From NCBI GenBank assembly GCA_001769035.1, contig MENF01000160.1, forward strand, positions 1-36,753: a stretch of 36,753 nt of DNA, read 5' to 3'. The notes beneath the pieces were generated by a model. The model was not told the DNA's origin and did no database searches. It was given only the letters and a program-made list of their open reading frames with translations. The stretch comes from Bacteroidetes bacterium GWA2_32_17 (GTDB lineage: Bacteria > Bacteroidota > Bacteroidia > Bacteroidales > GWA2-32-17). Position numbers and translations under genes: made by a program. Shown here piece by piece: positions 8,915-11,200 of this stretch (positions within the stretch are counted from its first letter, which is position 1; each line of letters starts with the position of its first letter).

Positions 8915-11200
8915 TTAAATTTTTATTCCCAAAACAGTAATATCGTCGGTTTGTTCATAGGTCTTTCTCCCGCAATTCATCCACGAATCAATGGTTTCGT
9001 TTAAAATTGTTTTCTGTTCTTCCATTGATTTATTGCTAACATTTTGCAGTAATTTCTTAAAATTACCCGATAAATATTTTCTTTTGTTAGAACCACCATA
9101 TTGATCAGAGAAGCCATCACTAAAAAGGTATAAACAATCACCTTTTGCAACTTTAAAATTATGATTTGTGAACTCATTCATTACGAGATAAATAGCAATG
9201 GGCATTTTATCGCCTTTAAGTTCCTCAAGATTTGACAACTTTTCAAAAGTTGTCAAATCTGAATTACTTCGAATAATATAAAGAGGATTATTTGCTCCAG
9301 CCCACTGACATTCGTTGGTTTCTGTATTAACAACGAGCAACGAAATATCCATTCCGTCTTTTTGTTCATCAACTTGTCCCTTTTGTTGCAATGCGTTAAC
9401 AATTTCCTTTCTAAGTTCGTTTAATACATGATTTGCTTGTGTAATCTCTTGCTTTCGTACTATTTCATTAAGGAAGCTTATTCCGAGCATACTCATAAAA
9501 GCTCCGGGAACACCATGTCCCGTACAATCTGCTACTGCAACAATTAACAATGGGGCATGTCCCCTTGTTTGAGTTGCCCAGTAGAAGTCGCCACTTACTA
9601 TATCACGTGGTTTATATAAAATAAAATAATCAGATAAAATAGAATCAATAATCTCAGGTTTTGGTAATAAAGCATTTTGAATTCTTTTAGCATAATGAAT
9701 GCTTGAAGTTAATTCTGAATGTATTTCTTCAATTTTATTTTTTTGTTCAATTAGCAAATCCCTCTGCGATTCTATTTCGTCTCTTTGCGAAGATATTTCT
9801 TCATTCTGTTGATTAAGTTCTTCGTTTTTTTCTTCTATTTGATGTTTTTGAAATACAAGTAGTTTATTTGCTTTCTTTTTTTGATTATAGCTAACAAATA
9901 TGACAACTGATAAAACAAGCATCAAAATAATACCAGCAATAAGACCAATTTTCTGGGTTTCTTGTTTGCTAATTTTAGCATTTTGAAGTTCTTTATCTTT
10001 ATTTAATAGTTCTATTTCTTTTTGTTTTTTTTCGGTTTGATAAATTGCTTCCATTTCCTTTATCTGTTTTCCAGATTCTATATTGTAAATGCTGTCGTTA
10101 AGTAACTTAAATAACTTTAAATATTGACTTGTTTTTTTATAATTTTCAAGACTATCGTAAGCTGATGAGAGATAATTATATGCACATTTTTGTTCATCAA
10201 GCGAACCAATATTTTTTGCTATTTCTAAACTTCTTTCGGCATATTTAATGGCTTCTTTATAATTTTTTATTTGATTATTTAACAATGAAATATTACCCAA
10301 AACTATTGCCATTCCCTTTTTATCGCCAAGTTTTTCATCAATTTTAAAAGATTTTAAATAATAGTTTATTGCCAAATTATTATTTCCTTTATCAGCATAT
10401 ACCAACCCTAAATTATTATATCTTTCGGACATTCCGGGCTTGTCATTTATTTCTTCAGCAGTTTTTAGAGATTTTTTGTAATATTCAATAGCCTGCGGAT
10501 AATCAGATTGCATATAATAAATAATACCTATGTTGTTATAACATCCTGATATAACACGCTTATCACCAATTAATTCTTCTGTTGCTAAAGCTTTTTTAAA
10601 ATATTCAAGCGAAAGGGGTAAAGCTTGGTTTTCGGCATGAATAGTTCCAATATCATTATAACTTCTTACCATACCTTTTTTACACGATAATGAAACAGTC
10701 AAATTGTTTGATTTACTATATTTTTCAAAAATTTTTAATGCTTTTTGGTATAAATCAAGTGCTTTTAGATAGTTCCCCTGATACATATATACCTCGCCAA
10801 TATTCAAATAACAATATGCCACTTCAGGTTCGTTTTTTTGAATTATCATAACATTTAATAATGTTTGATATGCCTTAATTGCATCTTTGTAATTGCCATT
10901 ATTGCTGTAAAATAATCCTACTTTATTATAACAAATAGTGATAAATTTTGAGTTAGAATTTTTAATTGCTGCTTTTAAAGCAAATTTGTAACAATGTTCT
11001 GCTGAATCGGGATTATCAACTTCAAACACATCTCCAAGTTTAATAAAAAGTGTAATTATTGTGCTGTCTTCTTTTGCAATAGTTAACTGATTTTTAATGC
11101 TATCAGCTAATTGAATGTTTTGTGAATTAACTTTATTATTTAAAAAAAATGAAATAAACAAACTCCATATTAGAAATATATATGTAATATTATTATACAT
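8915..11200 (-). CDS. TPR sensor with SpoIIE/PP2C-type serine phosphatase
   Basis: A 761-aa membrane-anchored protein of a kind very common in Bacteroidota. A signal peptide (residues ~1-26) is followed by about seven TPR units over residues ~40-340 (YNNIGIIYYMQSDYPQAIEY and similar), one membrane segment near 418-438, a coiled coil rich in E/Q/R (~445-500), and a SpoIIE/PP2C phosphatase domain (~520-761) with GDFYW, VADCTGHGVPGAFMS and YLFSDGFSDQYGG, which supply the metal-binding Asp residues. The expected role is a periplasmic sensor driving cytoplasmic dephosphorylation of an anti-sigma or STAS partner, not seen here. Residues ~647-657 (DLTTFEKLSNL) are encoded by a 33-base palindrome and look like an extra loop relative to the family. 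Upstream (11201-11323) is AT-rich with no clear promoter box. Confidence 0.9.
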   Translation of the reverse strand: MYNNITYIFLIWSLFISFFLNNKVNSQNIQLADSIKNQLTIAKEDSTIITLFIKLGDVFEVDNPDSAEHCYKFALKAAIKNSNSKFITICYNKVGLFYSNNGNYKDAIKAYQTLLNVMIIQKNEPEVAYCYLNIGEVYMYQGNYLKALDLYQKALKIFEKYSKSNNLTVSLSCKKGMVRSYNDIGTIHAENQALPLSLEYFKKALATEELIGDKRVISGCYNNIGIIYYMQSDYPQAIEYYKKSLKTAEEINDKPGMSERYNNLGLVYADKGNNNLAINYYLKSFKIDEKLGDKKGMAIVLGNISLLNNQIKNYKEAIKYAERSLEIAKNIGSLDEQKCAYNYLSSAYDSLENYKKTSQYLKLFKLLNDSIYNIESGKQIKEMEAIYQTEKKQKEIELLNKDKELQNAKISKQETQKIGLIAGIILMLVLSVVIFVSYNQKKKANKLLVFQKHQIEEKNEELNQQNEEISSQRDEIESQRDLLIEQKNKIEEIHSELTSSIHYAKRIQNALLPKPEIIDSILSDYFILYKPRDIVSGDFYWATQTRGHAPLLIVAVADCTGHGVPGAFMSMLGISFLNEIVRKQEITQANHVLNELRKEIVNALQQKGQVDEQKDGMDISLLVVNTETNECQWAGANNPLYIIRSNSDLTTFEKLSNLEELKGDKMPIAIYLVMNEFTNHNFKVAKGDCLYLFSDGFSDQYGGSNKRKYLSGNFKKLLQNVSNKSMEEQKTILNETIDSWMNCGRKTYEQTDDITVLGIKI
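9228..9260. repeat. 33-base near-perfect palindrome inside the phosphatase gene
   Basis: agatttgacaactttt, one base C, then its exact complement: 16-base arms with a 1-base centre. It is read in frame as DLTTFEKLSNL within the phosphatase domain, between the expected NNPLYIIR and KGDKMPI segments. I recall palindromes of this TTTGACAACTTTT type as intergenic repeats in Bacteroidota; that is memory, not a search. Confidence 0.8.

Follow-up and report, generated by a model that had tools for sequence, protein, structure and literature searches.

A REP/REPIN-like palindrome in frame in a predicted surface loop of a Bacteroidota SpoIIE/PP2C phosphatase, with a RAYT-type gene as candidate mobiliser

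Palindromes that lie within genes and are translated are already known in Rickettsia and for REP elements. RAYT subclasses 2.4 and 2.6 were treated in a study from 2018 whose first author is reportedly Quentin, and a palindromic amphipathic repeat coding sequence has been studied, reportedly under the name PARCEL. REPINs are inverted doublets of REPs that form hairpins (PMC3116915, 2011), and PMC3733652 (2013) presents GTAG and CGTC REPs as mostly intergenic; the few that lie inside genes are supposed to be accommodated by loops or linkers. REP inserts in frame in RAYT genes are described for subclass 2.4, which is abundant in Cyanobacteria and Bacteroidetes, and atypical structures for the flanks of subclass 2.6 in Bacteroidetes (both PMC6006769, 2018). 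Rickettsia palindromic elements (Ogata 2000, 2002) are about 150 bp long and fall into ten families, according to a review (PMC10969869), and the palindromic amphipathic repeat coding sequence is peptide-coding and horizontally distributed (PMC2996958). Palindromic repeats and MITEs are also reported from Thiomargarita nelsonii (PMC4853749).

The window, i.e. the whole stretch of DNA analysed (36,753 nucleotides, contig MENF01000160.1 of Bacteroidetes bacterium GWA2_32_17), contains a 33-nt palindrome, here termed F1, with arms of 16 nt each (9228-9243 and 9245-9260) that are 100% complementary and separated by a 1-nt centre (Table 1). Genomes, contigs and loci are referred to by G, C and L numbers, G000 being the window's genome, a draft of 234 contigs. 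A preliminary description made from the sequence alone had reported the palindrome with its perfect arms, and reading of the sequence and an inverted-repeat scan confirmed it. F1 was the sole palindrome of the window with a 1-nt centre and perfect arms of at least 10 nt; 30 simulated windows (first-order Markov) held a mean of 0.2 such palindromes at an arm length of 10 nt and 0 at 12 nt. Folded as single-stranded DNA, F1 formed a hairpin of -13.5 kcal/mol (z -7.75). The host protein matched PF07228 (SpoIIE, E 2.7e-20, Pfam) and also contains TPRs; its reading frame is intact, and the peptide DLTTFEKLSNL lies in frame within the SpoIIE/PP2C domain as had been claimed, its residues, first given as about 647-657, being those listed in Table 1. 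For the last 281 residues of the host protein the best fold match was SiaA-PP2C (6k4e; TM 0.77 by query), the only solved relative found by sequence, and the alignment of the two had gaps of 4 and 6 residues at the F1 peptide segment. In a structure model built from 40 aligned domains (mean pLDDT 85.9), the F1 peptide, a block with a confidence of 75-80, sits between predicted beta strands (model residues 160-163 and 178-181), and by this model it occupies a surface loop of the host phosphatase.

Table 1. Features of the host gene and the palindromes in it, as positions in the window.
Feature	Position	Strand	Basis
F1 palindrome AGATTTGACAACTTTT-C-AAAAGTTGTCAAATCT, 33 nt, 16-bp perfect arms	9228..9260	.	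Sequence read, inverted-repeat scan, 8 exact genome copies
Codons of extra peptide DLTTFEKLSNL, residues 648-658	9227..9259	-	Structure model, gaps in alignment with SiaA 6k4e
Host gene, TPR + SpoIIE/PP2C phosphatase, 761 aa, intact	8915..11200	-	ORF, Pfam, fold match
SpoIIE domain PF07228, residues 552-760	8921..9547	-	Pfam
Imperfect F3-like palindrome AACAAGGGGACATGCCCCATTGTT (coding strand), encodes TRGHAPLL, in other loop of host gene	9546..9569	.	54-domain alignment

The window's genome was searched with the 31-nt core of F1, which gave eight matches, all of them exact, and none at 1-3 mismatches; F1 as a unique palindrome is ruled out by these eight copies. Half of them are in frame in SpoIIE genes, always in the same loop: four paralogues carry one each, two of TPR type (in the window and on C149), one of regulator-propeller type (C127) and one of PAS type (C181; all types by Pfam). 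The other half lie outside ORFs of at least 90 aa (C63, C83, C150 and C226). The centre base is C or G in the four SpoIIE genes and A or T in the four remaining copies. F1 was also considered as an Rfam RNA and rejected as such, only two miRNA models having matched, far under their gathering scores.

In an alignment of 54 domains, SpoIIE members without the palindrome do not show the DLTTFEKLSNL residues, and the SpoIIE alignments rule out that the F1 peptide consists of ordinary conserved residues. The family had been said to have usually only a short loop at this site. Uninterrupted loops do exist (for example IRND-ELIEYKADKMP and VTPQK-ELKEIKPDKQP), but the loop, which lies between NPLYII and ELKGDKMP, is hypervariable: some members keep it short, and it is often taken up by other inserts. 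A second 33-nt palindrome, F2 (AAACCTAACAGGTTTT-C-AAAACCTGTTAGGTTT), encodes NLTGFQNLLGL at the same loop position as F1, a third, F3 (AACAAGGGGGCATGCCCCCTTGTT), encodes TRGHAPLL and is nested within F2 in two paralogues, and further fillings consist of what we label heptamer-like repeats. Each of the five genomes of the genus has F2-type palindromes (at most 3 mismatches), and so does G004. The form AAACCTAACAGGTTTTCAAAACCTGTTAGGTTT of F2 was seen in frame at the matching loop position in L018 (8658-8690; G000 C149) and in L020 (C75), and in G005, a genome of a related genus, the same SpoIIE loop holds the repeat-like inserts CLPVGKAG and SLPAGKVG (L193, L167). F3-like units occupy a second loop, often in tandem, in 11 of the 18 domains of the window's genome in the alignment, the host gene included, and perfect, tandem and nested versions of F3 occur in paralogues (C149, C150, C172, C200 and others); the F3-site loop is short in most of the same-genus relatives shown.

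The loop that holds F1 is an insertion hotspot, with two or more further palindrome families in the paralogues, one of them sitting inside another, and the window's genome has 48 matches to the SpoIIE domain. Tentatively, and with some doubt on our part, the loop may be, in this Bacteroidota lineage, a recurrent landing site for the unrelated palindromes F1, F2 and F3, some of them nested, and for other short repeats, with inserts passed among dozens of paralogues by short conversion tracts, such that selfish palindromes would make up a self-diversifying loop cassette of a signalling enzyme family. The palindrome could instead be a selected functional part of the phosphatase, either as peptide or as an mRNA hairpin that slows translation, the identity of the paralogues then being due to selection rather than to mobility. 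All four SpoIIE copies are exact in both arms, as such selection would have it, and the C181 copy is so even though its flanks have no conversion patch; yet the same 33-mer also stands between genes, both in the window's genome and in those of other organisms, the corresponding site of sister domains is occupied by F2 or other repeats or is merely a short loop, and unrelated proteins carry the 33-mer, so that selection of this kind is improbable as an account of F1.

The kinship of the four carriers was determined from a maximum-likelihood tree with the loops masked, in which 14 of 50 inner branches were weak. The carriers do not form one clade. The partner of C181 was a gene of G006 whose loop is short (100/100), that of C149 a neighbour with repeats (99/95) and that of the window gene an F2 carrier (92/64); C127 and C181 fell into a supported group of five together with three non-carriers (98/93). 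This last grouping, and the insert codon shared by all four carriers with AATTC on its left, would suit one ancestral insertion that was inherited by duplication alone, with neither repeated insertion nor conversion. We regard that history as very improbable: a single clade of the four carriers was rejected (p-AU 2e-47, 50 rows) in a test in which four long-branch rows were left out and the group was named after the tree had been seen, so that p is indicative only; the loop is short in C181's sister, which comes from a different genome of the genus; the nearest relatives of the window gene carry F2 or repeats; and high identity is confined to a patch. This patch was measured between the window and C127 or C149, where nucleotide identity is 93-100% in three ten-codon bins around F1, as against 33-86% elsewhere. 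In a same-codon test on identical residues, the flank codons of F1 agreed more often than the remaining codons for three of the six carrier pairs (p 0.0008, 0.005 and 0.047), whereas the three pairs with C181 gave no patch (p 0.28-0.51); among 13 control pairs one gave p 0.018. These sequence comparisons suggest that short gene conversion explains three of the carriers, and the C181 copy may go back to an earlier transfer or have been inserted independently.

Outside the window's genome, a family survey of 10 genomes gave F1 matches in G005 alone (25 copies, at most 3 mismatches) and a phylum sample of 395 genomes in G372 alone (18 copies, at most 2 mismatches), each besides the window's own genome. 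At least 118 stretches with F1 were found in a scan of named genomes, the matches listed being from Bacteroidota, with isolates of Mucilaginibacter, Taibaiella and Aquirufa among them, and from MAGs that bear the names Thiomargarita, Thiotrichaceae, Desulfamplus, Desulfatirhabdium and Desulfobacteraceae; exact copies were present in the Bacteroidota, those isolates included, and in MAGs of Thiomargarita, Desulfamplus and Desulfobacteraceae. Four genomes searched one by one contained 25, 35, 1 and 112 copies (at most 2 mismatches), the last number being that of one Desulfamplus MAG. A pattern search found no exact F1 in IMG/VR contigs, and PLSDB plasmids and INPHARED phages gave no F1 match. 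The distribution of F1 is patchy, and it crosses phyla if the MAG names hold. An assembly or binning artefact might be suspected from the draft state of the window's genome, with its 234 contigs, and from the cross-phylum records (Thiomargarita, Desulfobacterota), which are MAGs, but it is hardly credible, given that the isolates Mucilaginibacter, Taibaiella and Aquirufa carry the same 33-mer, that the flanks differ among copies and that 112 copies stand in one Desulfamplus MAG. Closely spaced copies were seen in Thiomargarita, where L039 (1826-2172) has five exact copies with a 79-nt period, and likewise in L055, L094 and L122.

Genomic context was counted for 125 copies in loci L037-L154, a sample of the listed matches from which loci shorter than 3 kb were dropped. 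Intergenic copies stood between tandem (63), convergent (25) and divergent (7) genes, 14 copies lay in or at ORFs of at least 100 aa and 16 at locus edges; control positions were 83% coding, with the intergenic ones 17% convergent, 59% tandem and 25% divergent. Nearly half of the tandem-gene copies (29 of 63) were centred 20-58 nt past the upstream stop. The early statement that palindromes of this kind are otherwise intergenic in Bacteroidota is borne out for the majority of copies, the 14 exceptions being drawn from a sample of all phyla, and it falls short in that REP inserts in frame had already been published for RAYT genes, in a subclass that is abundant in Bacteroidetes (PMC6006769).

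ORF-associated copies were found in L048, L050, L071, L072, L086, L097, L114, L126, L127, L135, L137, L139, L142 and L150; L072, L086, L114, L126 and L135 alone were taken as clear genic cases, the remainder lying at ORF edges, near ORF starts or in unidentified ORFs (L127, L137, L150), with the copies of L137 and L150 in another phase. For five of the 125 copies the surrounding gene could be assigned to a known family or to the RAYTs: two lie in genes for HemC and a RAYT-like protein, and three in those for a type ISP enzyme, a P-type ATPase and a TIR protein. All five are read in the DLTTFxKLSNL phase. Counted as events, six of six are in phase 0, a weak bias because 3 in 5 would be expected anyway. 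In HemC (L135) F1 fills a variable loop; all 17 relatives compared are without F1 and most have a shorter loop, although in two of them (L333, L335) it is about as long as the F1-filled one, and part of the insert aligns gap-free with distant solved HemCs. The alignment of the P-type ATPase runs through F1 with a single 1-residue gap on either side, and an insertion is not apparent there. In-frame insertion of F1 with the peptide kept was found in the unrelated genes SpoIIE, HemC and RAYT. In a TIR-domain gene of Thiomargarita (L114, 5139-6692), F1-like peptide units occur four times almost in tandem (RGEADLTTFQKLPNL...), which looks like an amplification of the palindrome inside the gene.

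The RAYT-like gene is that of L126, from a Flavobacteriales MAG, in which F1 lies in frame between the HUH and Y positions of an HUH-motif gene that had no Pfam match at 1e-5. Its homologue in the isolate Mucilaginibacter phyllosphaerae (L045:849-1472; the same locus in G372), with the motifs NHFH and YIHANP, matched NCBIfam REP_Tyr_transpos with E 9.2e-13 and 48 bits, under the curated cut-off of 80. Here F1-family palindromes are linked to a RAYT-like gene in one isolate: upstream of it is a palindrome variant with a paired change, and downstream is an array with a period of about 87 nt, made up of five F1-type palindromes of which two have the exact core. Half-units of F1 are present downstream as direct repeats; the unit alone gave no hairpin on folding. 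Among close RAYT homologues (E <1e-40), 6 of 9 had long palindromes, of several different sequences, adjoining or inside them, or 5 of 8 when L126, which had been found via F1, was left out; 7 of the 9 are rows of the search alignment. Palindromes stood on both sides of the RAYT in G372, C165, C134 and G415 C69 and in frame inside it in L126 and C165. In the window's genome, three of four close RAYT genes (C165, C134 and C110; not C176) have palindromes other than F1 but of like build, the background density, with F1 left out, being 13 palindromes in 112,324 bases. At L353 (G000 C165), the RAYT-like gene at 1184-1898 has AACTTTGCCAAAGTT-type palindromes on both sides and one in frame inside. 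Y1_Tnp (PF01797) genes of the bacterial family to which the window's genome belongs were tried as partners and rejected, with no F1 or F2 near the 30 loci scanned.

In none of the RAYT loci fetched for G000, G005, G404, G405 and G407 is the RAYT flanked by F1, despite the 8 to 112 copies of F1 in these genomes, some RAYT matches of the scan being without locus, nor was F1 found near the NCBIfam RAYT loci of G407, G404 and G405. In those five genomes F1 could have been mobilised in trans, been left behind by a RAYT since lost, or have spread otherwise. The same loci, and G004, which has two F2-like copies and no Y1_Tnp match, speak for a spread of F1 without RAYT, by replication slippage, template switching or another transposase, with incidental landing as the cause of the linkage. 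This we consider rather unlikely in view of the F1-family palindromes on both sides of the M. phyllosphaerae gene, the in-frame copy in a second RAYT and the different, like-built palindromes beside other RAYTs.

Constraint on the stem was judged from mismatched copies. Among the rows listed for G404 and G405, 17 of 21 two-mismatch copies had paired changes that keep the stem, as would be expected if the hairpin itself is recognised, and subfamilies copied after one paired change would give the same pattern; in the fetched loci, which are biased towards exact copies, 28 interior changes were uncompensated versus 10 compensated. No target-site duplication of 4 nt or more stood above shuffles in 154 copies, in which direct repeats amounted to 60 matches of 1 nt (at most 59 in 200 shuffles) and 10 matches of 3 nt (mean 4.6). 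The bases just outside the 33-mer were complementary in 15 of 137 copies, compared with about 38 expected by arithmetic from the marginals, and a palindrome longer than 33 nt seems unlikely. In the flank profile none of the bases beyond the 33-mer was strongly conserved, and no GT[AG]G or CGTC foot was found beside or within F1.

Taken as a whole, it is likely in our judgement that F1 is a REP/REPIN-like mobile palindrome that was spread by a RAYT-type HUH transposase, is tolerated in loops and was shared by conversion among carriers. It would consist of two 16-nt units in inverted orientation, which fold into a hairpin when the DNA is single-stranded, and a RAYT-type HUH (Y1) transposase probably spread it in trans. 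Most surviving copies are intergenic, often directly past stop codons, with few having landed in genes; one phase of F1 has no stop codon except where a TAA arises at the centre, and genic copies would persist where these 11 codons (33 nt) come to lie in a surface loop that tolerates them, and the protein would gain DLTTF[E/Q/K]KLSNL. In the window's genome F1 would have entered the SpoIIE/PP2C loop, after which at least three of the four carriers would have shared it via short conversion tracts, the peptide presumably being neutral in the host protein. On this reading, protein-coding palindromes extend beyond Rickettsia to an element that has no foot and is letter-identical across what the record names give as three phyla, and F1 gains a candidate mobiliser in a cultured isolate. 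One enzyme family, its loops recording different insertions at the same site, would offer a natural test of how proteins absorb selfish DNA. An element common to distant hosts, its likely RAYT and a multiply invaded phosphatase loop add to this interest.

The arms and peptides of F1 had no occurrence in the full-text literature searched. The preliminary description had likened F1 to the Rickettsia palindromic elements, and the likeness holds in the way of working, in that an in-frame peptide is added, no stop arises and the gene is kept, and Rickettsia elements likewise lie in frame in unrelated genes and code for peptide; it does not extend to membership, since F1 differs from them in its 33 nt (about 150 bp in the review, PMC10969869), its other hosts and its link to a RAYT. 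Compared with the palindromic amphipathic repeat coding sequence (PMC2996958), which reportedly forms tandem intragenic repeats of repeat proteins, F1 is mostly a single insert. F1 is a multi-copy, short and mainly extragenic palindrome, as REP/REPIN elements are, and its placement resembles that of REPs, which PMC3733652 locates mostly outside genes in unidirectional or convergent spacers; like the GTAG- and CGTC-tagged REPs it is so placed, but it has neither tag. REP/REPIN elements with their RAYT (TnpA-REP), notably those of subclasses 2.4 and 2.6, are alike in that short, mostly extragenic palindromes flank RAYT genes, and they are the nearer kin because F1-family palindromes flank the RAYT-like gene of M. 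phyllosphaerae. F1 departs from them in lacking a GTAG/GTGG foot, in its perfect 16-bp arms with a 1-nt centre, in its exact copies in three phyla (by record titles) and in being inserted in frame in a family of phosphatases and in further genes that are not RAYTs. F1 comes closest to a REP/REPIN-like element that lacks the usual foot, and not to a Rickettsia element.
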